DNA from: Prevotella sp.
Lineage (GTDB): Bacteria > Bacteroidota > Bacteroidia > Bacteroidales > Bacteroidaceae
Assembly (NCBI GenBank): GCA_017471465.1
Contig: JAFUTI010000025.1
Coordinates: 1 to 64,000, forward strand
Direction: 5' to 3'
DNA: 64,000 nucleotides
Below, in pieces: positions 7,869 through 38,151 of the stretch. The notes under the pieces are model-generated. The model had not been told where the DNA came from, ran no database searches, and saw only the letters and a list, made by a program, of their open reading frames with translations. The position numbers were made by a program, and so were the translations under genes. Within the stretch, counting starts at the first letter, position 1; each line of letters opens with the position of its first letter.

Positions 7869-9548
7869 ATGTTGCAAATCCGCTGCAAAAACAACAATGT
7901 GACGAAAAGTTTCCCTGAGGGAACGTCGCTGCTCGACGTCTACCTGGAGTTTGCCGACGAGATAAAGCTCCCCCACCCCGTCGTCTCGGCGAAGGTGAAC
8001 AACGTATCGCAAGGACTGAAGTTCCGGCTCTTCCAGAACCGCGACGTGGAGTTCCTCGACGCCCGCGAGGGCAGTGGCCACCGCGTCTACGTCCGGTCGC
8101 TGTCGTTCGTCCTTTACAAGGCTACGAAGGACCTGTTCCCCGCTTCGAAACTGTTTATCGAGCACTCGCTGTGTCGAGGCTACTACTGCAACTTCAAGAA
8201 GAAGGGCAACGACCCGCTGACGGATGACGATGTGCAACAGATTCGCACGAGGATGCAGGAGATTATCGACCTCGACATGCCGTTCCGCCGCACAGAGGCC
8301 ACCAACGAGGAAGCCATCCGCGTGTTTACCGACCGCGGATTCTCCGACAAGGTGAAACTGCTGGAGACCAGCGGACAGTTATACAGCGACTACTACACCC
8401 TGGGCGACACCGTCGACTACTACTACGGTCCGCTGGTGCCCTCGGCCGGCTACCTGAAGGTGTGGGGTCTGGAGCGTTACGAGGAGGGGCTGCTGCTGCG
8501 AGTGCCCGACTGGAACAACCCGTCGCAGCTGGCCGAGAAGGTGGAGCAGCCGAAGACCTTTGAGATGTTTGCCGAGAAGACGCGCTGGGACATCATCATG
8601 CGGCTGTCGAATGCCGGCGACGTGAACAAGGCCATCATGCGCGGTCATGCCTCAGAGCTGATACAGGTCAGTGAGGCCCTTCAGGAGAAGAAGATCGTAC
8701 AGATAGCCGAGGAGATCGACCGCCGCTTCCACCGCAAGAAAAATCCCGTCAGGCTGGTGCTGATAACAGGTCCGTCAAGCTCGGGCAAGTCGACCTTCTG
8801 CAAGCGACTGTCGGTACAGCTGCTGGCCTGTGGTCTGCGCCCCGTCTCGTTCTCTACCGACGACTATTTCGTGAACCGTGTCGACACGCCGAAGCTGCCT
8901 AACGGCGACTACGACTTCGACAATGTGGAGACCGTCGACTACAAACTGTTAGGCGAGCATCTGTCGAAACTGATGAAGGGCGAAGTGGTGGAGGTGCCTG
9001 AGTACAACTTCGTCACCGGCAAGCGCGAATACAACGGCAAACGGCTCCGGCTGTCGGGCGACACGGTGCTCATCATCGAGGGCATCCACGCCCTGAATCC
9101 GCTGCTGACGAAAGGGGTCGACGACGCCCTGAAATACAAGATCTACATCTCGGCCCTCACCAGCATCTCACTCGACGACCACAACTGGATACCCACCCGC
9201 GACAACCGTCTGCTGCGCCGTATCATCCGCGACTACAATAAAGGCGCCTTCACCGCCCAGCAGACCATCAGCCAGTGGAAGAACGTGTGCCAGGCTGAGG
9301 AGCAGTGGATATTCCCGTTTCAGGAGACGGCCGACGTGATGTTCAACTCGGCGCTGAACATTGAGTTTGCAGTCCTGCGCATCCATGCGGAACTCATCCT
9401 CGCCACCGTGCCGAAGAACTGTCCGGAGTACAGCGAGGCCCATCGTCTGCTGAAGTTCATCCACTTCTTCCTGCCCATCAGCGACAAGGAGATACCGCCC
9501 ACCTCGATTATGCGCGAGTTCGTCGGCGGTTCGTCATTCAAATATTAG
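7869..9548 (+). CDS. TGS-domain nucleoside (uridine) kinase family protein
   Basis: 559 residues. The first 65 residues look like a TGS domain; the next part contains FIEHSLCRGYYCNF, resembling the second additional domain of threonyl-tRNA synthetase; from about residue 293 a phosphoribulokinase/uridine kinase domain follows with Walker A GPSSSGKST (about 301-309) and FSTDDYFVNR. This three-part protein is standard in Bacteroidota and is annotated as nucleoside or uridine kinase, which would phosphorylate uridine/cytidine in salvage; the synthetase-like half has no assigned role. Its stop lies 16 bp from the end of menD on the other strand. Confidence 0.85.
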   Translation: MLQIRCKNNNVTKSFPEGTSLLDVYLEFADEIKLPHPVVSAKVNNVSQGLKFRLFQNRDVEFLDAREGSGHRVYVRSLSFVLYKATKDLFPASKLFIEHSLCRGYYCNFKKKGNDPLTDDDVQQIRTRMQEIIDLDMPFRRTEATNEEAIRVFTDRGFSDKVKLLETSGQLYSDYYTLGDTVDYYYGPLVPSAGYLKVWGLERYEEGLLLRVPDWNNPSQLAEKVEQPKTFEMFAEKTRWDIIMRLSNAGDVNKAIMRGHASELIQVSEALQEKKIVQIAEEIDRRFHRKKNPVRLVLITGPSSSGKSTFCKRLSVQLLACGLRPVSFSTDDYFVNRVDTPKLPNGDYDFDNVETVDYKLLGEHLSKLMKGEVVEVPEYNFVTGKREYNGKRLRLSGDTVLIIEGIHALNPLLTKGVDDALKYKIYISALTSISLDDHNWIPTRDNRLLRRIIRDYNKGAFTAQQTISQWKNVCQAEEQWIFPFQETADVMFNSALNIEFAVLRIHAELILATVPKNCPEYSEAHRLLKFIHFFLPISDKEIPPTSIMREFVGGSSFKY

Positions 9549-17602: not shown

Positions 17603-20600
17603 ATGAGATTACTTACTATTACCCTTATCTGTCTTCTGTCGGCAATGACAGCCAGTGCCGATCCCATCACCCGCGAACAGGCCCGCAAGAAAGCCGAGAC
17701 ATTCATGGCCGGACAAGACAGCCGGCAGCTGCTCGTCCCCGTGGAGAGCGCCAAGAAGCTGGCGCCGCGGCGCAAGGCCGGACGTGCCGGTGACGTCACG
17801 AGCGAATACTACGTCTTCAACAAAGGTGTTCAGCAAGGTTTTGTCATCGTGTCGGGCGACGACCAGACGGAACCCATCCTCGGCTATTGCGACGCTGGCG
17901 AGTTCGACTACGCCGTCCTGCCGCCGAACATGAAAGAGTGGCTCGACGGCTATGCCCGTCAGATAGCGCGCATCCAGACGGAGGGTGCACCAGTCATCCG
18001 CGATGCCATCCCCACCCATCCCAAGGTCGACGAGCTGATGAAGAGCCGATGGAGCCAGGGCTATCCCTACAACCTCACCTGCCCCGAGTATTTCTCGCTG
18101 GGCCGTTCGGTGACGGGCTGTGTGGCTACGGCCATGGCCCAGTTGCTATACTATAACCGCGAGAAGTCGGTGTCGGAGACGACGACAGACATGCCCGCCT
18201 ACGACACGTGGACAGCCCACGCCACCTACGGCCACCTGCATGTGGAGGGCATCCCCGAGGGTTCGCCCATCGACTGGGAGAACATGAAGGACGAGTACGG
18301 CTCTGCCACCGAGAAGCAGCGCAAGGCCGTTGCCGACCTCATGCACTACTGCGGCGTGGCAGTGAAGATGGACTATACCAACGCCTCGTCGGGTGCCCAG
18401 TCGTACGATGCCTACCAGGCTTTCGGCAAGTATTTCGGCTACGGCTCGTCGGTGCGCTACGTCAGCGCCTCGTCGGTGAGCAGCGACACGCAGTGGGACG
18501 ACATCATCTACAAGGAGATAGCGGCAGGTCGTCCTATCTATATCAGCGGTGCCAACAGCGGCGGCGGCCATGCCTTCGTGGCCGACGGCTACGACGGCAA
18601 CCTCCGCTATCATATCAACTGGGGCTGGGGCGGCACGAGCAACGGCTACTACCTGCTGACGAACCTCACCCCCGGCCAGCAGGGCATCGGCGGTTCCAAC
18701 GACGGCTACAACGACTATCGTGAGGTCATCATCGGTATCGAGCCCGAGAACTACGGGGAGAAGGAGATGACGATTGCCGACCTGACGGTACGCCGTATCT
18801 GTCTGGAGCACTTCGACACCGACGGCGACGGCAAGCTGACCTACGGCGAGGCCGCTGCCGTGGAGCGTCTGGGGACGGTCTTCAAGGGCAGCACTATCAA
18901 GACCTTCACGGAACTCTACTATTTCACCGGACTCACCGAACTGTCCGACGACGCCTTCAGCGGCTGCAGCCAGCTGACGACGCTGCGACTGCCTAAGAAC
19001 ATCCAGCGTATCGGCGCACAGGCCCTGATGGGATGTGCCCGTCTGTCGAAGCTCGACATGCCCAACCACGTGACGGCCATCGGTGCACGCGCCTTCCAGG
19101 GATGCGTCCTACTGAAGAGTCTGTCGCTGCCCGATGATATGACCGTCATCGAGGACGGCACCTTCGCCCAGACAGGACTGACAGCCGTCACACTGCCTAC
19201 CACGGTGACGGCGATAGGTGCCGAGGCCTTCGCGAATTGCCAGAGTCTGTCACGCATCGAGGTGAAGACCTACCGGCCGTCGGCTATCAGCCTCAGTCCG
19301 TCGGCCTTCAACGGCACCGACCTGTCACGCGTCACCCTCAGCTGTATGCAGGGCCTGCGTACCTATTTCTCTTCTACACCTGTCTGGCAGGACTTCGGCA
19401 ACATCAGCGAGCAGCGCGAACTGTCGGGCGGCCGCTTTGCCGAACTGGAGGCCCAGCAGACCTACTACCTCTATCACGTGGGCACGGGACAGTATCTGAC
19501 CAAGGGCGAGGCCTACGGCACACAGGCCGTTGTCGGCGACAGTCCCATGCGCTTCGTCATCAACCACACGGCGACGATGGCCGACGGTGTCTACTACCTC
19601 ACATCGCCCGACACCGGCAGGGAGGGTAACCTCCTCTTCCGCACGTCGGCCGACGGTAATGTCGGCAAGGGCGTGAAGGCCACCTTCGTCGACGGGGCCC
19701 TCTCCGCCAACCGCGCCAACGCCTACTGGACCATCCTGTCTATTGGCGACGACACCTACACCATCCAGGTGCCCACCACGGCAACGGGCTACGAGGACGG
19801 GAAGTTCCTGGGTGTCCTCAGCAGCCACGAGAGCAATGCCGCCTCACCCACCTATGGTGTCTACAGCGACATCGACTACGCCACACACCCGCTGAACTGC
19901 CAATGGCGGCTTGTGCGCTACGACGAACAGGCGGCCCAGACCTATGCCGCCGTCAAGGAGCTGGGCAACCTGCTTGACATTGCCGCCACGCGCTACCTCG
20001 CCGTCGATGCCGAGCAGGCCGTCTACGACCGTCTTGAGAGCACCTACGACGAACTGCGGCAGGCCCAGCGCTCCCTGCGTAAGAAGCTGAAGTTTGTTGA
20101 CTTCGCCGACGATGCCGTGCGCACCGTCAGCATCTCGAAGTGGGATATCGACAGCAATGGTGAGCTGAGCTACACCGAGGCTGCCAAGGTCAGCGATTTC
20201 GACATCTCGTTCCAGAACAACACGACGCTGACGAGCGTCGACGAGTTGCAGTATTTCACCAGTGTCAACGACATCTACGGCAACACCTTCAGCGGCTGTA
20301 CCAACCTGACGTCCGTCGTGCTGCCCCCGAACCTCGTACATATTTATTATTATGCGTTCCGCAACTGCAGCAGTCTGCAGTCCATCGCCCTGCCGGAGTA
20401 TGTCAATACCATCGGCGATGGCTGTTTCCTGGGCTGCACGGCCCTGCGCTCGGTGACGCTCGGCACCCCCGACCCGTCGGTCATCAGCCTCGGCACCAAT
20501 GCGTTCAACGGCATCAACCTGTCGCTGTGCACCCTCTATGTGCCGCAAGGGTCGAAGGCCGTCTACGAACAGACGCCCGTCTGGAGGAGCTTCGGACAGA

Positions 20601-22294
20601 TTGTCGAGGTACGCGGCCATACACAGCCGAAGTTCTCGGCCGTGACACCCGATGTCGCCGGCTACATCATGAATACGGCCACACGTAAGTACATCGCTAC
20701 GGGTGAAGCCTACGGCACACAGTCGGTGGTGGCCGCCAACGGCTTGCAGTACCAGTTCAAGCACACCAGCGCCATGGCCGACGGTGTCTACTATCTGACG
20801 ACGGGCAGCAAGTGTCTCTTCCGCAGCGATACCGACACGAAGGTAGGCACAGGCGTCAAGACCTGTTTCGGCGACGGCAGTGTCTCGGCGAAGGCTTACT
20901 GGAAGGTCGTCATGAACGATGACGGCACCTTCACGATGCAGGTGCCGCAGACCGATGCCAGCTACGTCGCCGACGAGTACCTCGGCACACAGGACAGCCA
21001 TCGCAGCGACTTCAGCAGTCCCACCTACGGACTGTACTGGGATGTCAAGGGCGCTGGCACGCGCTGGGCTTTCATCACCGCCGACGACATGCGTGAGGCC
21101 CAGGAGCTCGACACCAAGTTCACGCAGCTTGCCGACCTGCTGAAACGTGCCGGCGAGGCCGGCGTCGACGTCAGCCGTGAGCAGGCCGTCTACGACAATA
21201 TCCACAGCACCGTCGCCGACCTCGACGACGCACGTCAGTCCCTACGTCAGAAGCTGCACTACATCGATTTCGTCGATGCGAAGGCCAAGACACTCTGTGT
21301 GGCTTTCTGGGACAGCAATGCCGACGAGGAGCTGTCGCTGGAGGAGGCGGCTGCCGTCACCGACATCGGCACCACCTTCAGCAACATCGCTAATCTGAAG
21401 AGTCTGGAAGACCTGCGCTACTTCACGTCGCTGACAGCCGTTCCCGACAATGCGTTCCGCGGCTCGACGGTGTTGGAGACGGTCTATCTGCCTGAGAATG
21501 TCACCTCTATCGGCACGTACGCCTTCCTGCAGACCTCTGTCAAGAATCTCGTGCTGCTCAACGGCCGGTCGCTTGTTGCCAAGGGGATGTCAAACCTGGC
21601 CAACAACGCGCTGGTGTTCGTGCCCGTCGCGATGGTCGACGCCTACAATGCCGACGCGTCATGGGCGGAGCGCTGCACCATTGTCGACTATACGGGTCAG
21701 CCGGTCGTCACTGGCGAGGCCAGCCGCGTCTACGGTCGCAGCTCGACTACTTTCAAGATGAAGGTGACGGGAGCCCCCGTCGACGGTGAGGCGGCTTTCG
21801 AGTGCGAGGCTGCCGGCAACAGCAAACTGCCTGTTGGCGACTATCCCATCACCGTGCTGCCAGGAACCATCACGACGGCCAATGTGACGTACCGTGAGGG
21901 TGTGCTGACCATCGAGCCGGCGCCCGTCACTATCACGGCCAAGAGCTACACCCGGCAGGTGGGAGAGCCCAACCCGGCGTTCGAGGTCACCTTCTCCAGT
22001 TTCCGCAATAGGGAGACCGACACCGTGCTGACGGTACGACCGGTCGTCACCTGTGAGGCGACGATCGACAGTCCGGCAGGTGAGTACGACATCGTGCCCA
22101 GTGGTGCCGATGCCCTCAACTATGCTTTCAAGTATGTGTCAGGGAAGCTCACCGTCGTCGCCAATCCCGATGCCATCGTCTCCGTCGAGGCCGACGGGCG
22201 CCTGCAGACCGTCTACGACCTGCAGGGGCGCCGCGTCGCCACTCCTCGTCGTGGCATCTACCTCCGCGACCGGCGGAAGGTCGTTGTCAGATAG
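17603..22294 (+). CDS. Secreted C10-family cysteine protease with EF-hand/leucine-rich repeats
   Basis: 1,563 residues. Signal peptide (LLTITLICLLSAMTASA), Spi-like propeptide (PITREQARKKAETFM ... EYYVFNKG ... FVIVSGDD), then a streptopain-type C10 domain: catalytic Cys173 in SVTGCVATAMAQ, catalytic His323 in GGGHAFVADGY, followed by HINWGWGG. After about residue 390 a unit appears three times: an EF-hand-like loop (DTDGDGKLTYGEA; DIDSNGELSYTEA; DSNADEELSLEEA), then BspA-type leucine-rich repeats, and after the first two a carbohydrate-binding-like segment (G-Q-Y/Y-I ... T-G-E-A-Y-G-T-Q). An MBG-like domain (ITAKSYTRQVGEPNPAFEV) and the short tail GRRVATPRRGIYLRD close it. Likely exported or surface-bound and host- or food-protein degrading. 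No own promoter seen. Confidence 0.85.
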   Translation: MRLLTITLICLLSAMTASADPITREQARKKAETFMAGQDSRQLLVPVESAKKLAPRRKAGRAGDVTSEYYVFNKGVQQGFVIVSGDDQTEPILGYCDAGEFDYAVLPPNMKEWLDGYARQIARIQTEGAPVIRDAIPTHPKVDELMKSRWSQGYPYNLTCPEYFSLGRSVTGCVATAMAQLLYYNREKSVSETTTDMPAYDTWTAHATYGHLHVEGIPEGSPIDWENMKDEYGSATEKQRKAVADLMHYCGVAVKMDYTNASSGAQSYDAYQAFGKYFGYGSSVRYVSASSVSSDTQWDDIIYKEIAAGRPIYISGANSGGGHAFVADGYDGNLRYHINWGWGGTSNGYYLLTNLTPGQQGIGGSNDGYNDYREVIIGIEPENYGEKEMTIADLTVRRICLEHFDTDGDGKLTYGEAAAVERLGTVFKGSTIKTFTELYYFTGLTELSDDAFSGCSQLTTLRLPKNIQRIGAQALMGCARLSKLDMPNHVTAIGARAFQGCVLLKSLSLPDDMTVIEDGTFAQTGLTAVTLPTTVTAIGAEAFANCQSLSRIEVKTYRPSAISLSPSAFNGTDLSRVTLSCMQGLRTYFSSTPVWQDFGNISEQRELSGGRFAELEAQQTYYLYHVGTGQYLTKGEAYGTQAVVGDSPMRFVINHTATMADGVYYLTSPDTGREGNLLFRTSADGNVGKGVKATFVDGALSANRANAYWTILSIGDDTYTIQVPTTATGYEDGKFLGVLSSHESNAASPTYGVYSDIDYATHPLNCQWRLVRYDEQAAQTYAAVKELGNLLDIAATRYLAVDAEQAVYDRLESTYDELRQAQRSLRKKLKFVDFADDAVRTVSISKWDIDSNGELSYTEAAKVSDFDISFQNNTTLTSVDELQYFTSVNDIYGNTFSGCTNLTSVVLPPNLVHIYYYAFRNCSSLQSIALPEYVNTIGDGCFLGCTALRSVTLGTPDPSVISLGTNAFNGINLSLCTLYVPQGSKAVYEQTPVWRSFGQIVEVRGHTQPKFSAVTPDVAGYIMNTATRKYIATGEAYGTQSVVAANGLQYQFKHTSAMADGVYYLTTGSKCLFRSDTDTKVGTGVKTCFGDGSVSAKAYWKVVMNDDGTFTMQVPQTDASYVADEYLGTQDSHRSDFSSPTYGLYWDVKGAGTRWAFITADDMREAQELDTKFTQLADLLKRAGEAGVDVSREQAVYDNIHSTVADLDDARQSLRQKLHYIDFVDAKAKTLCVAFWDSNADEELSLEEAAAVTDIGTTFSNIANLKSLEDLRYFTSLTAVPDNAFRGSTVLETVYLPENVTSIGTYAFLQTSVKNLVLLNGRSLVAKGMSNLANNALVFVPVAMVDAYNADASWAERCTIVDYTGQPVVTGEASRVYGRSSTTFKMKVTGAPVDGEAAFECEAAGNSKLPVGDYPITVLPGTITTANVTYREGVLTIEPAPVTITAKSYTRQVGEPNPAFEVTFSSFRNRETDTVLTVRPVVTCEATIDSPAGEYDIVPSGADALNYAFKYVSGKLTVVANPDAIVSVEADGRLQTVYDLQGRRVATPRRGIYLRDRRKVVVR

Positions 22295-22448
22295 AGAGGA
22301 GCTGTTCCCACTCAGACGGATAGAAGTCCAGCTCGCGCGACAGGTTTCCCTCTGTCGTGTCGGTGGTGCCTGCTGTGCTCACAGCTATCATCTGCTGTAA
22401 CTGTATGTTGACGCAGGTGGTGGTAGGTGTCTGATATTTCCGTTTCAT
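22287..22448 (-). CDS. Small peptide of the MK-x-x-Y-x-x-P ... QMIAxS family (copy 3)
   Basis: 53 residues, not previously obvious because of its size. Begins MKRKYQTPTTTCVNIQLQQM and continues IAVSTAGTTDTTEGNLSREL, ending DFYPSEWEQLLSI. The first 24 residues align with the two peptides at 34943 and 37996 (conserved M-K, Y, P, V-N, Q, Q-M-I-A, S), and the S-R-E plus aromatic/acidic end also recurs. It starts 20 bp after the stop of the PL11 gene on the same strand and is preceded by a strong Shine-Dalgarno-like AAAGGAGG, rare in this phylum. Its stop overlaps the C10 protease stop by 8 bp (convergent). I recall similar short hypothetical proteins in Bacteroidales but know no function. Confidence 0.7.
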   Translation of the reverse strand: MKRKYQTPTTTCVNIQLQQMIAVSTAGTTDTTEGNLSRELDFYPSEWEQLLSI

Positions 22449-22468: not shown

Positions 22469-25400
22469 TTATTTGACGATTACCTTACGGCCGTCTCTGA
22501 TGTAGATGCCGTTTGTGGGCTTGCTGACGCGCTGGCCCTTCAGGTTGTAGACATTCGCCTTTTCACCATTCGTCAGCGAAGTGCCGTTGATGGCGGTGGC
22601 CTCATCCGTCAGCGGATAGAAGCGTGCTTCCGCAGGAGCGAAATCGGCCGGCAGGTAGGCCGTCTGTGCACCCACGGTGAAGGCATTGTTGTTGAGGAAG
22701 AATCCCGTCGTGCCCTGTTCCTGGAGCAGCACGTAGACAGTGCCTGCCTCCTTGACGGTCTGCTCCGTCACACCCACCAGCTTGTTGGCTGAGGTGTCGG
22801 TGGTGCCGCCTGCCACGACGGGGATAACGCAGGTGCCCTGGCCCTTCAGCAGCAGTCCGGTGCCTGCGGGCACGGTGCCGTCGACGGTCTGTAGTGTCAG
22901 TGTGGTGCCGTTAGCCTCGACGCCTGTGACGAGGTAGGCCTGTGTCAGGTTCGTGATAGCGCTGCTGAAGTCGAGTGCGTAGGGGCTGCAGTAGGTGGCC
23001 CATCCGGCGCTGCTGATGGTCTTCAAGATCGACGTCAAGACATCGAGCACCTCGACGGAGTAGACAACGGAGTATCGTGTGAGGTTCACGGTATTGATGC
23101 CTGTCGATTTCACCTTATATATACGGGTATTACCATAGTCCAGACCCATCGCCTCCAGACCTGACACGTCGTTCACCGTCCCACTCAGTGTGATGCGCAC
23201 ATACTGTCCCTCGTTGGCCTGGATGGCAATGTTACGGCCACCGCTGAATGCCATGTAAAGGCCACCGTTGTGGATATAGGCATTATTGTTGCTGGTGCCG
23301 TCGCCGGGGACGCCGAAGTTGGCGTTCAGCAGGTCGTCGGCGTTGTCCTTCAGCACCGTGTAGCTGCCGAGTTTCGTATCGGAGTAGCTCGTCGACGAAA
23401 TCTTTGTGAAGTCGATGTTCCAGACATTGGCAAAGACGGGCATCACGTCTAGCACGGTCTCAGCCGGTTCAGAGTCGTTGTAGCCCTCGGCCACGGCGTA
23501 GGCCGACAGCGTAGAGCCGCAGAAGACGCTGACGGCACTGCCGGCGGTACAGCGCAAGGTCTCTTCACCGTCGATGGTGTAGTAGATGATGACCTCCGAT
23601 GGAGCGGCAGCCAGCGACGACTGGTTGCTGCCGATGACTATTTCATATTTACCGTCGGCATAGCCCGTCTTCGTGAAGAAGGGCGCTGCGAGTGTAAGGG
23701 TGCTGCCGGCCTCCACAGCTACGGAAGCGGGGGTGCTGGCCTCGTCGACGATATACGACACGGCCTTGACGGTGCACGATGCCGTCACGTCGAAAGGTTT
23801 GGTGTAGAGCTGGCGGGCGGCGTTGGCGGCGTCAGCAGGATCGCTGCCGTTGAGCGTGTAGTAGGTCTCGGTGGCTGCCGTACCATGGCTGCCTGCACCC
23901 GGCGTAATTTCGACGGTGCGCGTGCCGCCGTTGGCTGCCAGGATCTTGATGACAGGCTCGCTGACGGTCTCTTCCGTTGCCGATGTCTTGATGACGACCT
24001 TAGTGATACGGGTGCTCTGTCCGATGCCCGAGAGGTCGAGATGCGTCGTTGCATCGGTCGTACTGATGGTGTACTCCGTTCCGCTGACAAGCGTGCTGTT
24101 GGCACTCATGCCGCTGACGTTTGTCGAGAGCAGTGTCAGGTTGCCGTTAGAGATGTAGAACGTCACCTTGTCGCCGTCCTTCAGGTTGAGCACCGACAGG
24201 TAGTAGGTGTTCGGGTTTCCCGTGTAGGTCAGCAGGCAGTTCCAGCCCGTGCCGCTGCGTATCCACCAGTCCTGGTACTCCGAGTCGGTGCGACGGCTCT
24301 TCGAAGTGGCGAAGCGGTTACCGAGGGTGTAATCGCCGTATGCTGCCTGATAGACCTTTGCTTCAGAGGTTTCCTGAGTGATGGCATCGTCCGACAGGGT
24401 GGCATTTTTGTTTCCGGCCTCGGTAGCGATAGCTGCGAAGTCGTAGGTCTCCGTCACCAACCCGTCGAAGTAGACCTGGGTAGCAGCGCTGACACCACCG
24501 GCCGATGAGACGGTGTAGAAGTAGTAGGTTGTCTCGTTAGGCATCTTGACATAGCTCTTCTCCATCTTCGTGCCGTCCACGGCGGGGTTCGTCGAGGGCG
24601 CGGTGGTGTAGTAGACGGAGACGTCGTTGCCGAGCGACGACTCACCGGGCGTCACGGTCTTGACCTTTCCTTCGCCGCTGACGGCGGGTGCCGTCACCTT
24701 CTCCAGTCCGGCCATCAGCACGAGTTTACCGTCCTCGATGGCGAGTTTGCTGTCGTCGCCGGCGCCCTCAACGATGATGTCGCTGAGTGCACCCTCACCG
24801 AGACTGCCGATAGTACCTAAGACGTAGGTGGCACTGCTCAGTGCGGAGACGGGCTGTATCTCGATGACGGGCTTCAGCAGCTGGGGGCCGTACTGTTCCC
24901 AGGCCTCACCGCTGCGTGTGCGGATGTTCAGGGTGCCGATGTTCACCTGGTCGAACTGCGAGTTCTTCGGGTCGAGCTGCATGACGATGCGGGCTCCCTC
25001 GTGCAGGTTCAGCGTGCCGACGGTGGTCGTGCCGTAGCTGACGGCGTCGGCATCGTTCACGTCGCCGCCCGTGGGATAGAGCGTCGAGCCATACTCCATG
25101 GTGAGCGACTTCTTGATCGTTGCACCCGAGAAGAAGCTGGTGTGGCGGTTCATCCACACGTCGCTGCCCGTCAGCGTACCGCGGAAGCGCAGTGTGCCGC
25201 CCCAGATGTCGGTCTGGCCAGTATAGCTGAAGTCACGGTTCGTCAGTTTCAGCAGACCGTTGCCCTGTTTCACCAGACGTGTGGTGCCGGTGATGTCGCC
25301 CTTGTCGCTACCGTTGCCCAGCTGCGTGGCTTTAACGCTGGTAGAGATGCTGTTGTTATTGTCGTTGCCCGACACCACGGCGTTGACGTTGACGGTGATG

Positions 25401-32474: not shown

Positions 32475-32548
32475 GAAGGAAAAACCGCGATTTTTGACTT
32501 TTTCGAATAATTTTTGCGAATTGCCTTGGCAGTTCGCAATTTATTTTG

Positions 32549-32609: not shown

Positions 32610-34862
32610 ATGAAACAAAAACTACTCAAAACAATGAGAGGGTTCCTCGTGGCAGCTTTGCTCGGCGTGGGGACAACGAGTGCGTGGGCAGATGGCAACA
32701 AACGTGTGCTTAACTCACAAAACTATGAAACTGCTGATGCGACAGACTGGACATGTACTAATGGTGTCGCTACTTTACAGACTGGTGATGCCACCTATGG
32801 TAAATATGCTCAATGTTACCCTAGTGGTTCAGGTAATCGCACTATCTCCAAGTCCGTAACTTTAAGTTCCGAACCAGATGGAAGCACTACAGCAGCCATG
32901 ACAACAGATGGATACAACGTTGAGTTTGACTTCGTTCTCGTTGGTGGCAATGTGGTTCAAAGAAGTGAATCTCAATTTACTGTAAATACTTCGGGAGATC
33001 CTTTATTTACTCTTTCACAGCCCTTGCTTGCAGCAGAAGGTGCAAATGAGGGAAAAAACGCTGGAAACACAGGTAAAGCTGTGACCACTTGGTATGTTAA
33101 TGACCTAACGAATGCTACTGACGAAACAGTAGATCTTGGTGGAAGCACTTGGTATCACCTAAAGTTGGTGGTTACAGCAACTTCGGCTGCTTACACCATT
33201 ACAAGCAACACCACTTCGGAAGAAGTTAAGAGTGGCTCAAAAACTATCACAGGTATCTCTAAGATAACTGGTTTTGGTGGACAGGTAGGCCGTGGGTCTG
33301 GTAAGCTCAATTTCGACAATCTTGAGATTTATGACTACACTGCAACTGTTTCGGTAACAGCTCCTACATTCAAGTTCAATAAGGTTGACGGTGCAAAACG
33401 TAACTACACCATCACCAATCCTAACGGTAGCGGTACGCTCTACTATACGACAGCTCCAGCAGACGTTGCACCCGCAGAAGGCGATGCTGCTTACTCATCA
33501 ACGACAGAGGCCACAGCAACCGTTGACTTCAGCGAGAGCGGCACATATTATGCATACGTGCTACACACCAACGGTACGACAACTTCACCTGTAACTCCTC
33601 AGGCTGTTACTGCCGGTACCCTGACGCTTACTGCTCCTGTGTTCACCGTTACAGATATGGTGGAAGCTACCGACGGATTCTTCTATCCTGTTATCACATT
33701 TGCATCTAACAACTCATCGCTGGAGGGTGCTCCTACAGCTACCTTCGACGTTGCAAGTCCCTATACCTTCACCAGCACAGGCTCTATCACCGTAACGGCT
33801 TCTGCCGAAGGCTACACATCAAGCAGCAGCACATTTACTGTTAACAACAAGTATTCGCTTAGCAAAACTATAGACTTCGGTGCATTGACCGCTTCTGATT
33901 TCGATGGTGCTACTTGGACCACCGCTACAGGCGCTCCCCGCGACTATTGGACAAGCCGTGCTGCTGCTATTCCCGCTGATGTTACTTATTACAAGTTGAC
34001 AAACACCAGTGCTACCGCTGGCGACCCTGATAACTCTGCAGTGCTCGATGGTATTACTATTTCCAACTACAATCAGCGTGCACCTGAGGTGTATATCGGC
34101 TACGGTCTGCTGACCCCGTATTCTTCTATCAGTGGTTCTAGTAACTATATGAATTTCAAGGTGAACGGCGGGGCTGCCACAGACTACATTGTCTACAACG
34201 GCTGGAACAACTACGGAAGTGGCACGTTCAATACCGTTCTTGCTGGTGACGCTACCTTCGGTCTATATCGTTATGACACCATGTTGCGCACCATCAATGT
34301 GTACTCGCCTGCTTCCGTCCCCGTCACCATCCCCGCCAGCGGCTACGCTACGCTTGCAAGTGCTTACAACCTCAACCTGAGCAGTGTGTCGCTTTTTGCC
34401 TACACGGTGAGCAGCATCAGCAACACTGCCGTGACGCTGAGCCCTATTTCGAACAACCTGATTCCTGCCAACACCGGTGTTATCCTGACAGGCGAAGCTG
34501 GCAACTATAATATCGACGTGCAGGCCGACGCTATCGAAGCCATCACCGGCAATAAGCTGCAGGCTGCCGTGACGGCTACCGCCGTCGAGGCCAACGCTGC
34601 CTACATCCTGCAGGACGGTGAGTTCCACATCGTGAAGAACGCCAGCACCATCCCCGCCGGCAAGGCCTATCTGCTGGCAACGGACGTGCCCGAAGGTGCT
34701 CGCTCGCTGACCTTCGACTTCGGCGACGCTACAGGCATCAGCGCTATTGCCAAGAGCCAAGAGCCAAATGCTAACGGCTATTACAACCTCGCTGGTCAGC
34801 GCGTAGCTCAGCCTCAGAAGGGCCTGTACATCCAGGACGGTAAGAAAGTGATTATAAAATAA
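32610..34862 (+). CDS. Secreted protein A with short C-terminal tail, AT-rich body
   Basis: 750 residues from ATG 32610 (MKQKLLKTMRGFLVAALLGV, signal peptide ending TSAWA). An earlier in-frame start would lie in the promoter. No catalytic domain recognised. Residues about 30-250 look like a jelly-roll/LamG-like fold (WYHLKLVVTATSAAYTITS; KLNFDNLEIYDYT). Two chitobiase-C/FN3-like beta domains follow (YYTTAPADVAPAEGDAAYSS; VFTVTDMVEATDGFFYPVI). The end carries AKSQEPNANGYYNLAGQRV, then a K-G-L-Y-I tail. Codon use is far more AT-rich than in its neighbours until about the last 500 bp. A hairpin and a 59-residue peptide gene follow, repeated almost exactly after secreted protein B. Confidence 0.8.
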   Translation: MKQKLLKTMRGFLVAALLGVGTTSAWADGNKRVLNSQNYETADATDWTCTNGVATLQTGDATYGKYAQCYPSGSGNRTISKSVTLSSEPDGSTTAAMTTDGYNVEFDFVLVGGNVVQRSESQFTVNTSGDPLFTLSQPLLAAEGANEGKNAGNTGKAVTTWYVNDLTNATDETVDLGGSTWYHLKLVVTATSAAYTITSNTTSEEVKSGSKTITGISKITGFGGQVGRGSGKLNFDNLEIYDYTATVSVTAPTFKFNKVDGAKRNYTITNPNGSGTLYYTTAPADVAPAEGDAAYSSTTEATATVDFSESGTYYAYVLHTNGTTTSPVTPQAVTAGTLTLTAPVFTVTDMVEATDGFFYPVITFASNNSSLEGAPTATFDVASPYTFTSTGSITVTASAEGYTSSSSTFTVNNKYSLSKTIDFGALTASDFDGATWTTATGAPRDYWTSRAAAIPADVTYYKLTNTSATAGDPDNSAVLDGITISNYNQRAPEVYIGYGLLTPYSSISGSSNYMNFKVNGGAATDYIVYNGWNNYGSGTFNTVLAGDATFGLYRYDTMLRTINVYSPASVPVTIPASGYATLASAYNLNLSSVSLFAYTVSSISNTAVTLSPISNNLIPANTGVILTGEAGNYNIDVQADAIEAITGNKLQAAVTATAVEANAAYILQDGEFHIVKNASTIPAGKAYLLATDVPEGARSLTFDFGDATGISAIAKSQEPNANGYYNLAGQRVAQPQKGLYIQDGKKVIIK

Positions 34863-35010
34863 AGACAACCAAGACAACAAGGACAACCTTATGACGGATA
34901 GTTGTTTAAGTTGTTCTAGTTGTCGTTAAAAACAAGAAGATAATGAAAAAGACATATTTGAATCCGGAAATAACAATCGTCAACGTGCAGGTAGCACAGA
35001 TGATTGCAGC
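34718..35010 (+). repeat. 293-bp cassette repeat, copy 1
   Basis: Spans the last 145 bp of secreted protein A, the hairpin and the first 68 bp of peptide copy 1. It matches 37771-38063 without gaps (constant offset 3,053 bp) with about 16 mismatches by hand count. Confidence 0.85.
34864..34924 (+). promoter_or_regulatory. Long RNA hairpin between protein A and peptide 1
   Basis: Right after the TAA: GACAAC, ACAAC, ACAAC on the left and GTTGT, GTTGT, GTTGTC on the right, separated by a 13-nt loop. The three blocks pair in register with short internal loops. No T-run follows, so it is more likely a processing, stability or translation-control element than a terminator. Confidence 0.6.
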
Positions 35011-35122
35011 CTCGACAGAGACACTGGGCATCGGCGAGCCCATTGATGATGCAACAGGCGCCGAATCGCGCGAGAGCGTATTCCCCTGGGAGGACGACCT
35101 CACCTCGATCATCGGACTCTAA
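34943..35122 (+). CDS. Small peptide of the QMIAxS family (copy 1)
   Basis: 59 residues. Starts MKKTYLNPEITIVNVQVAQM, continues IAASTETLGIGEPIDD, and ends AESRESVFPWEDDLTSIIGL. The first 24 residues are nearly the same as copy 2 and alignable with copy 3; after Ala-Ser the sequences diverge until an S-R plus acidic/aromatic end. No signal peptide: the conserved region is polar-amphipathic. It lies 80 bp after secreted protein A on the same strand, separated by the hairpin, and is followed by a terminator, so it shares the transcript. Leader-plus-variable-core is one reading; a chaperone or regulator of the upstream protein is another. Confidence 0.75.
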   Translation: MKKTYLNPEITIVNVQVAQMIAASTETLGIGEPIDDATGAESRESVFPWEDDLTSIIGL

Positions 35123-35142
35123 GCCCATCAGCCTCACAGCTA

Positions 35143-35177
35143 CCTCACAGGGGGTCTGCCCCCTGTGAGGTTTTTTT
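35143..35177 (+). terminator. Terminator after peptide copy 1
   Basis: CCTCACAGGGGG and CCCCCTGTGAGG (12-bp perfect arms) around TCTG, followed by seven T. The loop-proximal GGGGTCTG resembles the palindrome family of this genome. Confidence 0.9.
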
Positions 35178-35594
35178 ATTTTTCGTTTTTGTCGTCACAT
35201 AGCACCTAACAGACTGACAATCAACAACTTACAGCGTGACGACAAATGATGGCGTGTCGACACGCTTTGCCACATTATTTTGCAAACAACCAGAGGGCGT
35301 GACGTAAAAAAATATAGGCGCAAGAGAAAAATTTCGCGACGCGAGAGAAATTTTTCGCGGCGCAAGAAGTAAGGCAAGCATTTGTCGTCACTCCGCTTTT
35401 TGCCGTCACTCCGCAACACCCTCTATTTCAATGCATTATACCAGAAGTGACGACAAAACGACAAAAAAACTGTAAGAGTTGCAATGATGAGATTTGATTC
35501 TCGATATATTTTGCAGTATCAAACAAGCACAACAAGGAAAACGTTTACGTAAAAGATTTCGGGCGCCCCCTTTGGCGTTTAATTTTATTCTTCG
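35178..35594. other. 417-bp non-coding region with repeated GTGACGACAAA words
   Basis: No gene. Six copies of GTGACGACAAA or its complement, some degenerate (35186-35198, 35236-35246, 35299-35309, 35381-35391, 35397-35409, 35447-35458); a perfect palindrome GCGTGTCGACACGC at 35252-35265; and a tandem pair GAGAAAAATTTCGCG / GAGAAATTTTTCGCG at about 35320-35360. Looks like a regulatory region or protein-binding array ahead of secreted protein B. Confidence 0.5.
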
Positions 35595-35602
35595 TATCTT
35601 TG
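35595..35602 (+). promoter_or_regulatory. -7 box of secreted protein B
   Basis: TATCTTTG, 45 bp before ATG 35648. Confidence 0.7.
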
Positions 35603-35647
35603 CGCTCAAAACCAATCATTTTACTAACAAAACAAACTAAAACTATT

Positions 35648-37915
35648 ATGAAAAAACTTTTTACTTTATTGACGCTACTCCTCACCTTGGGGGGGGCAAC
35701 TTCTGCGTGGGGTGAAGCTACCACCATCTATTCAATGACTAATGTGACAGGGCCGACAACAAACGTTGAATCAAAAACAACGGTGGACATTGTAGCTACT
35801 TTTGTTGGCGGTTCAGCTCAGGCATATAATGGCAAAAGCTCTTCAGCTGCATTAGCAGATAAAAGTGGAAATATTAAACTAAGCGGTTCAAGTGACAGCT
35901 ATTTCCATGCAATCTTAACAGGTACTGAGACTATAGCCGAAGGCGATATTATCACTTGTGCAAGTGGAACGCTGAAGGTCAGTGCCACATCAACAAAGGG
36001 TTCATCTGTTACCTTCCCCTATACCGTGCCGAGTGGTTCTCCCCTGATTGGCCAAAAGGATGTCTATCTTTGGAAAGATGGTGCGAATTCTTTTACGTCG
36101 TTCACCATCACCCGTCCCGGTGCTGACGACGTTGCCAACCCCGTCATCACTCAGAGCGGCAGCAGTGTGACCATCACCTGCAGCACCGACGGTGCTACCA
36201 TCTACTACACCACCGACGGTTCTGAGCCAACCTCTTCCAGCACGGCCTACAGTGATGCTATCACCATTGACAATCCTTGTACCGTGCGTGCCATCGCCAT
36301 CAAGGGTGAGAATGCTTCCAGCCTGATGCTCAAGGACTGCTATGTGTCGCACGCCTCTGCAAAGGTCGTTCTCGGCTATAGCGGCGGCAGCGTTTCTGGC
36401 GATGTCTGGACAAGTACTGACGGCAACTACATTCTTACTGATAATGTAGCAGACCGTGGAATAAACGCAGCTACTCTTGCTGCAACAAATGATGCTTTCA
36501 AGCTGAACCATACCGACACCTATACCCTTAAGATTAGCAACAACATCAAGGTAACAAAAATTGTCGTGGTTGGTAAGTCTTGGTTGAAGGGTAGCGCAGG
36601 CAATGCCTCTACTCTTGCATTCGACGGCTTTACGCCAGCTTCCGGTTCTTTCTTCGACTTTGTTGACGAGACCTATGTAAATACCATTGAATTCACGCCT
36701 GAATCTGAACTTGGCTATGGCGCGTCCATCATTATGCGTCCAAGCACCAACCAGTTGGGTGCATACATTGAGATTTACGGTGAAGAATACGCATCGTCCG
36801 TTACTACGTATGATACTCCCGTAACTTGGGACTTCACCTCTTGGAGTGATGCTACTATTACAGGAGTAACTGGCGACGGAACTAACTGGTATACTAATGA
36901 AAAGTCAGACAACAGTGGTGTTGATATGACAGGAAATATCGGTCGCACAAATATAGGTTCACTTAGCAACAACTCGCTATCCTACAGCGGCACTAATATT
37001 GCTGAGACAGATGGTTTGAAGTTTTCTAGTGATGCTTATGGATTAGCTTTGCTCTTTAATTTACAAGAATTGTCGGGAATGTCTCCCGATGGTGGATATC
37101 ACAGCGGTAAATACATTTGGTTGTATAATACAAATACAAAGATTAAGATAGAGAATGTTACCAAAGGCTCTATCATTGAAATTGGTTTAGAGCCGCACAA
37201 GAAAAATGATGCTCGTGGCTTAACATTGACCAATAGTACGCAGACGCAGGGTGACGCCAAGCCAAATGCTTATCAGGTATGCAAATGGACTGTTACTGCT
37301 GACGGCGACGTGACCATCACGCCCACCAAGGGTCTACACATTTATTATATTACTCTGACGAAGGCCAATGAGGCTGTTTCCATCACTCCCGCCAAGGCAA
37401 CGACAACATACGTTACTACCAAGGCTCTCGACTTCTCGGCTGTTGAAGGTCTGAAGGCATACGCTGCTACAACAGCCTCTGCTTCTGCCGTCACGCTGAC
37501 AGAGGTAGGTGCTGTTCCTGCCGGCACTCCGCTGGTGCTCATCGGTACAGCTTCTACTGAGTACACTGTTCCCGTGGCTGCTTCCGCCTCCGCTCCTGCA
37601 GCGAACCTGCTCGTAGCTGGCGACGGCACGACTGAAATCGGCGGCGACAGCAAATATGACTACGTGCTGAGCAGCGGTGTGTTCCATCGTGCAAATGCTG
37701 GTACGGTGGCCGTCGGCAAGGCTTACCTGCATCTCGACAGCGCTCCTGCTGCTCGTGAACTGACCATCAGCTTCGGCGACGCTACCGTCATCAGCGCTAT
37801 TGCCAAGAGCCAAGAGCCAAATGCTAACGGCTATTACAACCTCGCTGGTCAGCGCGTGGCTCAGCCCACGAAGGGCCTGTACATCAAGGACGGTAAGAAA
37901 GTGATTATAAAATAA
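35648..37915 (+). CDS. Secreted protein B with short C-terminal tail, AT-rich body
   Basis: 755 residues from ATG 35648; signal peptide MKKLFTLLTLLLTLGGATSA. The mature part has a chitobiase/hexosaminidase C-terminal-like domain (ITCSTDGATIYYTTDGSEPT, TVRAIAIKG), two beta-sandwich-like stretches (VTWDFTSWSDATITG) and the same C-terminal tail as protein A (KSQEPNANGYYNLAGQRV, G-L-Y-I-K-D-G-K-K). No catalytic motif recognised. The body is not closely similar to protein A, but the last 145 bp are nearly identical. AT-rich compared with flanking genes. Followed by the conserved hairpin and peptide copy 2. Confidence 0.8.
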   Translation: MKKLFTLLTLLLTLGGATSAWGEATTIYSMTNVTGPTTNVESKTTVDIVATFVGGSAQAYNGKSSSAALADKSGNIKLSGSSDSYFHAILTGTETIAEGDIITCASGTLKVSATSTKGSSVTFPYTVPSGSPLIGQKDVYLWKDGANSFTSFTITRPGADDVANPVITQSGSSVTITCSTDGATIYYTTDGSEPTSSSTAYSDAITIDNPCTVRAIAIKGENASSLMLKDCYVSHASAKVVLGYSGGSVSGDVWTSTDGNYILTDNVADRGINAATLAATNDAFKLNHTDTYTLKISNNIKVTKIVVVGKSWLKGSAGNASTLAFDGFTPASGSFFDFVDETYVNTIEFTPESELGYGASIIMRPSTNQLGAYIEIYGEEYASSVTTYDTPVTWDFTSWSDATITGVTGDGTNWYTNEKSDNSGVDMTGNIGRTNIGSLSNNSLSYSGTNIAETDGLKFSSDAYGLALLFNLQELSGMSPDGGYHSGKYIWLYNTNTKIKIENVTKGSIIEIGLEPHKKNDARGLTLTNSTQTQGDAKPNAYQVCKWTVTADGDVTITPTKGLHIYYITLTKANEAVSITPAKATTTYVTTKALDFSAVEGLKAYAATTASASAVTLTEVGAVPAGTPLVLIGTASTEYTVPVAASASAPAANLLVAGDGTTEIGGDSKYDYVLSSGVFHRANAGTVAVGKAYLHLDSAPAARELTISFGDATVISAIAKSQEPNANGYYNLAGQRVAQPTKGLYIKDGKKVIIK

Positions 37916-38063
37916 AGACAACCCAGACAACAAGGACAACCTTATGACGGATAGTTGTTTAAGTTGTTCTAGTTGTCGTTAAAAACAGAAAGAAGATGAA
38001 AAAGATATATCAGAATCCAGAAATAACAATCGTCAACGTGCAGGTAGCACAGATGATTGCAGC
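37771..38063 (+). repeat. 293-bp cassette repeat, copy 2
   Basis: Matches 34718-35010 without gaps; covers the 3' end of secreted protein B, the hairpin and the first 68 bp of peptide copy 2. Confidence 0.85.
37917..37977 (+). promoter_or_regulatory. Long RNA hairpin between protein B and peptide 2
   Basis: Same three-block ACAAC / GTTGT hairpin as at 34864-34924, with a single base change in an internal loop. Confidence 0.6.
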
Positions 38064-38151
38064 GTCAGTTGACTTAAGCGAAGAAACTGTTAATCCTTCT
38101 GCTGCCGAGAGCCGCTTCTTCGGCCTCGACGAGGAGTCACTGCTTTGGTAA
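37996..38151 (+). CDS. Small peptide of the QMIAxS family (copy 2)
   Basis: 51 residues. Starts MKKIYQNPEITIVNVQVAQM, then IAASVDLSEETVNPSAAESR and ends FFGLDEESLLW. Identical to copy 1 at residues 7-24; variable afterwards except for A-E-S-R and an acidic, aromatic end. It lies 80 bp behind secreted protein B on the same strand and has a strong terminator after it, so it is co-transcribed. No transporter, peptidase or modification enzyme is encoded nearby. Confidence 0.75.
   Translation: MKKIYQNPEITIVNVQVAQMIAASVDLSEETVNPSAAESRFFGLDEESLLW

Follow-up and report, generated by a model that had tools for sequence, protein, structure and literature searches.

In the type IX secretion system (T9SS), the cargo SprB is paired with SprF, a large outer-membrane protein, with one such dedicated partner encoded directly downstream of each cargo. 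Here we consider three short genes for peptides of 51 to 59 residues (peptides 1, 2, and 3), each encoded behind a secreted protein in a 64,000-nucleotide stretch of a Prevotella sp. contig (JAFUTI010000025.1; the whole stretch is called the window below). The closest described counterparts of these peptides are linear polyphosphorylated peptides (LPPs), a family of ribosomally synthesized and posttranslationally modified peptides (RiPPs) reported in 2026 from Bacillota (PMC13381572). According to that report, LPP precursors have a conserved YxxP front and a variable remainder, and the leader consensus is YxxPxVLxHQxIxFETxxS. The LPP RiPP recognition element (RRE) contacts K, Y, P, and one hydrophobic residue of the leader, an archaeal-type signal peptidase (SpI) cuts the leader, and an HprK-like kinase phosphorylates core Ser3, 18 residues after the Tyr (PMC13381572).

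The initial annotation had described the three genes as sharing a front and lying behind same-strand secreted proteins with a common C-terminal tail. The open reading frames (ORFs) translate as it described, with 80, 80, and 20 bp between the stop of the secreted cargo and the start of peptides 1, 2, and 3, respectively, and with a tail-bearing protein upstream on the same strand each time. We consider it likely that these peptides are dispersed, cargo-paired precursors of a Bacteroidales variant of an LPP-type RiPP pathway. From genome sequences, we document the peptide family, its linkage to the tail and to a second domain (domain X), its covariation with domain X, its co-occurrence with SpI and the T9SS protein SprA, and its co-clustering with candidate enzymes in some other bacterial families.

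A peptide family encoded behind cargo with domain X

The assembly containing the window (2.40 Mb in 53 contigs, 63% complete) gave 19 matches at E ≤ 10 to a model built from the three window peptides, and 18 of these lay, by eye, directly behind a tail-bearing ORF at a measured spacing of 17 to 84 bp. A model built from 18 of its own peptides gave at least 22 matches at E ≤ 0.001. The shared tail itself gave 101 matches at E ≤ 1. Among the best 70 of these 101 tails (E ≤ 2e-7; one regex false positive, C51:100824, was taken out by hand), 26 were followed by a peptide and 44 were not. Domain X, a region of about 140 residues preceding the tail with a motif around K/R-A-Y-L/F, scored at least 25 bits in 26/26 peptide-followed tails versus 5/44 others with a model built from other genomes only (Fisher p 1.5e-14). 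In this assembly, the peptide goes with domain X and not with the tail as such. The predicted fold of domain X is a confident all-beta unit, for which no clear solved relative turned up.

The peptides were also widespread in relatives. In the bacterial family, 189/301 genomes matched the peptide model at E ≤ 0.001, including 99/168 high-quality genomes and 20/30 genera; per-genome copy numbers from this search are lower bounds. In an order-level sample, 12/295 genomes matched at E ≤ 0.01. The named relatives with a peptide were rumen Prevotella and Prevotellaceae assemblies. Searches of Pfam, NCBIfam, and PHROGs found no family covering the window peptides; peptide 1 alone matched PF24178 weakly (E 0.019), below the cut-off. 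Judged by these profile matches, the peptides are a large, unannotated Bacteroidales family.

The initial annotation had reasoned that a spurious link to secreted proteins would leave homologues at random positions, and it had proposed tabulating the gene upstream of profile matches in relatives. The 89 family loci read held one place twice (L036 = L159), and 3 of the 88 that remained had less than 400 bp of upstream sequence, leaving 85 distinct testable loci. The upstream protein carried both tail and domain X in 72 of these, the tail only in 2, and domain X only in 1, so that 75/85 peptides lay directly behind a tail and/or domain X protein, at a median spacing of 22 bp. The positions of the homologues were not random, and the arrangement seen in the window holds well beyond it. 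Control ORFs of at least 150 residues in the same loci carried the tail or domain X in 0/134 cases (32 on the same strand, 102 on the other), a weak control because many of these ORFs are probably not genes; the 26/26 versus 5/44 contrast is the better one. Separately, we observed that a minority of the peptides stand before a lipoprotein-like or secreted-looking ORF, and not behind a tail protein, as at L031, L141, L167, L183, L185, and L019.

Among paralogues of the window's own assembly, domain X covaried with the peptide front (r = 0.54) and back (r = 0.71; n = 26). With near duplicates removed (n = 21), the correlations were 0.36 for the front (p 0.0012) and 0.33 for the back (p 0.0004). 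The description of the peptides as a conserved front with a variable rest was borne out for the front and is incomplete for the rest, since many members share a C-terminal end reading S-R ... W-D-D-E or R-R-G-x-W-G-N-L-W.

We also calculated dN/dS (the ratio of nonsynonymous to synonymous rates) for 19 family pairs, in which some sequences are shared between pairs and one pair is the same locus twice. Of the 13 pairs with dS > 0.1, 12 gave ratios of 0.09 to 0.44 and the remaining one had saturated dS. The six pairs with dS < 0.1, all of them uninformative, comprised three at 0.93 to 0.99, one at 0.29, one without synonymous change, and the duplicate. The only pair including a window peptide, peptide 2 versus L079, differed by 2 synonymous and 7 nonsynonymous changes (ratio 0.93) and is uninformative on selection because the two are too close. 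Near-neutral ratios, which the initial annotation had named as showing no selection on the reading frame, were absent from family pairs with enough divergence, a result that covers the wider family and not the window peptides.

The front of the peptide and candidate processing enzymes

The front of the family resembles a leader of the RRE-binding type. Y/F-x-x-P was present in 85/85 family peptides, with K/R at Y-2 in 83/85 and Ser at Y+19 in 83/85. In an alignment of 36 peptides chosen to span the order, Y5, P8, and S24 were invariant. Of the full LPP consensus, the family front matches just the Y, the P, the final Ser, and some of the hydrophobic positions. Together with co-occurrence and, in some families, physical linkage to RRE, peptidase, and kinase clusters, this front supports the leader-core proposal of the initial annotation.

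A PqqD/RRE gene was found in 262/301 family genomes, a gene for which an LPP-type pathway would suggest a use. We read 34 RRE loci, 33 from the family and one from another family (f111), and a home-made model recognized the RRE in 33/34. SpI within 2.5 kb together with an HprK-like kinase within 3 kb was found in 28/33 RRE loci and the kinase within 3 kb in 31/33, with RRE, SpI, and HprK models built partly from the same loci that they score; 11 of those 28 loci also had rpoD within 6 kb. In an alignment of 19 RREs, N35 was invariant and D73 near-invariant, as for Tyr-type contact residues of a discrete RRE, and both line up with the Asn and Asp of TfuB1, a structurally characterized lasso RRE. 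From this alignment to TfuB1, N35 and D73 may be the equivalents of LppB N33 and D70. The SpI catalytic residues S40, H78, and D93 were invariant; matches of SpI to TIGR02228 and of the kinase to HprK_rel_A were below cut-off. We found no YxxP small ORF beside the enzymes at the rpoD-linked loci. The statement that no processing enzyme lies near the peptides holds for the window; in relatives, the likely enzymes come from genes at other locations. As a side observation, an exported-looking protein of 138 to 204 residues preceded the HprK-like kinase in the central cluster at L223, L224, L225, L227, L229, L232, L234, and L235.

Direct linkage of peptide and enzymes was seen in other genomes, where we read 17 regions, 15 of them with SpI; these were chosen around SpI genes or model matches and are for that reason not a blind sample. 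The peptide lay inside the enzyme cluster in 4/15 SpI loci (L298, L300, L301, and L303). L298 and L300 share the order cargo, RRE, peptide, kinase, peptidase. L301 has the order peptide, kinase, peptidase, RRE, nucleoside triphosphate (NTP) transferase, ATP-binding cassette (ABC) transporter, and in L303 a lipoprotein-like ORF stands between peptide and kinase, followed by peptidase, RRE, NTP transferase, and an ABC-like gene assigned by eye. In L299 and L302 the peptide lay about 4 kb or less from SpI, with no RRE detected in L302. When the 631 small ORFs of these loci were ranked with a model built from family peptides only, the ten best (E ≤ 0.01) were YxxP ORFs, six of them those of L298 to L303. 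PF14907 (NTP transferase) was found in L301 and L303 and ABC domains in L226 and L301. Beside the RRE loci, no ABC gene was flagged by a crude motif scan, which also missed the L226 ABC.

The cargos of L298 and L300, the latter cut by the contig end, carry the T9SS type A sorting domain TIGR04183 at 39.5 and 40.7 bits (cut-off 23). Of the domain X plus tail proteins, 7/67 matched TIGR04183 weakly (best E 0.003), and a profile comparison of the tail with T9SS domains (hhalign) gave a probability of 22%. SprA is present in the window's own genome and in 171/189 peptide-positive versus 58/112 peptide-negative family genomes. The tail-bearing cargos are probably T9SS-type surface proteins.

The peptide also co-occurred with the candidate peptidase. 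In the order sample, SpI was found in 9/12 peptide-positive versus 23/283 peptide-negative genomes (8/11 without the genome used in the SpI model), and the three peptide-positive genomes lacking SpI are 63, 65, and 89% complete. We compared 32 SpI-positive genomes, 23 of them unused in the model, with 48 SpI-negative genomes picked by list order. A broad peptide model matched 15/32 versus 2/48 at E ≤ 0.01, and 6/23 versus 2/48 with unused genomes only (p 0.012). In the family sample, in counts uncorrected for phylogeny or completeness, the peptide was present in 160/199 genomes with both SpI and SprA, 16/41 with SpI only, 11/30 with SprA only, and 2/31 with neither. That the peptide tracks SpI and SprA together is compatible with a precursor dependent on the enzymes and partnered with T9SS-type cargo.

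Proposed pathway and alternatives

For the proposed precursors, we infer RRE binding, cleavage, phosphorylation, export, and action with the cargo. A stand-alone RRE of the PqqD fold would bind the front K-x-Y-x-x-P-x-x-x-V-V-x-I as an added beta strand, the HprK-like kinase would phosphorylate the near-invariant Ser24, and the archaeal-type signal peptidase (Ser-His-Asp) would cut a few residues before Ser24, at about residue 20 to 22, leaving a product of roughly 30 to 38 residues. In Prevotella-type genomes, enzymes at one central locus, in some next to rpoD, would act on many precursors scattered over the genome; the genes of most of these stand immediately downstream of the gene for a surface protein, probably of T9SS type, that has both the tail and domain X. 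The product would be made together with the cargo and would most likely act with it at the cell surface; of all these steps, we are least sure of this joint action. We tentatively raise one specific form of it, which we think may well be wrong: each T9SS-type cargo would have a private RiPP, phosphorylated and cut by a shared RRE-kinase-peptidase set, that binds or decorates domain X at the cell surface. If true, a RiPP system would be an accessory that a secretion system uses protein by protein and not the source of a free natural product.

Several findings weigh against an LPP-type pathway with T9SS-type cargo. PMC13381572 describes LPPs as restricted to Bacillota. The family front lacks the H-Q and F-E-T of the LPP leader, the family Ser is at Y+19 and the LPP Ser at Y+18, and Y+5 is L/V/I/F/A in only 39/85 peptides. 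No SpI match was found in the window's own assembly, which is 63% complete, and its single PqqD sits in a different, radical S-adenosylmethionine (radical-SAM) cluster. In 9/15 SpI loci, the peptide was farther than about 4 kb or absent. The cut-off of E ≤ 0.1, at which the broad model matched 18/32 versus 2/48 for all SpI-positive genomes and 9/23 versus 2/48 for unused ones (p 0.0004), was picked after the list had been inspected; at E ≤ 1 the counts were 19/32 versus 12/48 and, with unused genomes, 10/23 versus 12/48 (p 0.17, not significant). Among the 189 peptide-positive family genomes, 13 lacked SpI, 13 lacked PqqD, and 18 lacked SprA, and the co-occurrence counts, those of the order sample included, are uncorrected for phylogeny or completeness. 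Pfam and NCBIfam searches did not recognize the window tails as T9SS domains, and 10/85 peptides had neither tail nor domain X upstream, some of them preceding a lipoprotein-like ORF. Finally, a weaker correlation links the peptide front to the 150 residues before domain X (r = 0.22, n = 24), which in turn correlate with domain X at r = 0.66, so that co-inheritance accounts for at least part of the covariation. The covariation between peptide and upstream protein that the initial annotation had proposed to examine is present, and it may be nothing more than co-inheritance.

In the strongest competing explanation, the peptides give rise to a RiPP unrelated to the neighboring cargo, such as an antagonistic or signaling peptide, and the linkage only provides co-expression or reflects joint duplication of a tail-plus-peptide cassette. 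A 305-bp block in the window runs from the last part of the cargo gene across the spacer and through peptide codons 1 to 23, showing that these parts move jointly; peptides that precede lipoprotein-like ORFs would fit the same explanation, and covariation can arise by co-inheritance. We nevertheless regard it as rather unlikely, since the link in the window's assembly is specific to domain X and not to the tail, the tail plus domain X arrangement recurs in most loci of relatives, the peptide stands behind recognized T9SS cargo in two other families, and its presence tracks SprA as well as SpI. The same pairing and covariation with domain X would be expected if the peptide, left unprocessed, were a small partner or chaperone of that domain with a YxxP front that is RRE-like by chance, and the window has no enzyme, its assembly has no peptidase, and the peptide is known from sequence only. 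This second alternative appears improbable in view of the peptide's co-clustering with RRE, SpI, and HprK in L298, L300, L301, and L303, its co-occurrence with SpI, the near-invariant Ser at an LPP-like spacing, and the predicted structure of peptide 2, in which a confident extended front (predicted local distance difference test [pLDDT] ~88) is followed by a loose remainder without a fold. The dedicated-partner proposal of the initial annotation is supported, by linkage and by covariation with domain X, as a genetic pairing only.

In some members the front ends in A-G-S, and double-glycine leaders with peptidase-containing ABC transporters are reported in Bacteroidales (PMC10352776), which together would suit bacteriocin precursors cut by a C39 peptidase transporter. 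Such an identity is very improbable here, as conservation falls on K, Y, P, and S and not on G-G, and the partners, where linkage is seen, are RRE, SpI, and HprK.

The LPP-type precursor reading would give a testable identity to an unannotated peptide family in 189/301 sampled genomes of a major gut and rumen bacterial family. It would also extend to Bacteroidales an RRE/signal-peptidase/kinase pathway described from Bacillota and join peptide natural products to type IX secretion. When one open-access library was searched for peptide natural products and type IX secretion, no retrieved title or abstract contained either term.

The window copies and comparison with described systems

The features of the window are collected in Table 1. 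Peptides 1 and 2 look like products of a recent duplication or conversion, and because the 305-bp block is 94% identical between them, they are not independent examples. Peptide 3, by sequence, is a diverged, older relative. When all six frames of the window were scanned for the front with as many as five substitutions permitted, nothing beyond these three was found, and no signal sequence was visible by eye in the approximately 55-residue peptides. Peptide 2 has a relative, L079, in the rumen Prevotellaceae assembly RUG200 (92% identity), in which the spacer is just 19 bp where the window copies have 80 bp. We also noticed by eye a GACAAC...GTTGTC inverted repeat in both window spacers (34863-34942 and 37916-37995). 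A further tail-bearing protein (17603-22294, plus strand), whose end overlaps that of peptide 3 on the opposite strand by a few bases, had no domain X score, and no peptide was found behind it.

Table 1. Positions and properties of the peptides, cargo proteins, and duplicated block in the window
Feature	Position	Strand	Remarks
Peptide 1, 59 aa, proposed precursor	34943..35122	+	Leader ~residues 1-21, conserved Ser24; front K3-x-Y5-x-x-P8, S24
Peptide 2, 51 aa, proposed precursor	37996..38151	+	Front pattern and profile match
Peptide 3, 53 aa, proposed precursor	22287..22448	-	Front pattern and profile match
Secreted cargo 1	32610..34862	+	ATG start read from sequence; ORF list: TTG at 32514; no Pfam match
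Secreted cargo 2, CHB_HEX_C_1 / Fn3_assoc domain	35648..37915	+	ATG start read from sequence; ORF list: TTG at 35600
Secreted cargo 3, rhamnogalacturonan lyase family 11 protein, 1672 aa	22469..27487	-	
Domain X + tail, cargo 1	34275..34859	+	92.3 bits, hidden Markov model (HMM) from other genomes
Domain X + tail, cargo 2	37328..37912	+	86.6 bits, same-type HMM from other genomes; modelled, mean pLDDT 90.8
Domain X + tail, cargo 3	22472..23056	-	65.9 bits, HMM from other genomes
Duplicated block, copy 1 (cargo end, spacer, peptide codons 1-23)	34707-35010	+	94% identical to copy 2
Duplicated block, copy 2	37760-38063	+	94% identical to copy 1

Two other clusters with a PqqD gene were observed. 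In the window's genome, L222 (G000:C34:25000-42000) holds a radical-SAM, HprK-like, and PqqD cluster with its RRE at 8112-8363 (minus strand); one radical-SAM protein has a SPASM domain by Pfam, and the others and a transporter were assigned by eye. A Tyr-rich small ORF of 47 residues in this cluster (7957-8100, minus strand), adjacent to PqqD, also has YxxP in its front and ranked 1 of 2704 by the front model, but weakly (E 0.15). In another genome (G005), L230 is a lasso-like cluster with an Asn-synthetase-like gene by motif, PqqD, and a WxxP small ORF at 8636 (minus strand) that gave no match to the front model; in its RRE, Glu occupies the position at which most of the other aligned RREs carry Asp.

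In comparison with SprB-SprF, the partner gene here likewise lies directly behind its cargo, one per cargo, but encodes a peptide of about 55 residues instead of a large outer-membrane protein. With lasso peptides (B1/RRE dependent), the family shares a [Y/W]xxP leader and a PqqD-type RRE; in contrast, a crude motif scan of the 34 RRE loci for a macrolactam synthetase (Asn-synthetase-like) gene flagged one locus only, the separate L230 cluster. The likeness to LPPs extends to the YxxP front with a variable rest, the conserved Ser near the presumed cleavage site, a discrete RRE, an archaeal-type signal peptidase with Ser/His/Asp, an HprK-like kinase, and, in some Bacteroidales families, NTP_transf_5 and an ABC transporter. 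Unlike LPPs, the family occurs in Bacteroidales, the order to which our search was confined, and is known from sequence only. Its precursors are dispersed and mostly paired with tail/domain X cargo, whereas the Prevotella-type enzymes are central and stand without an obvious adjacent precursor.

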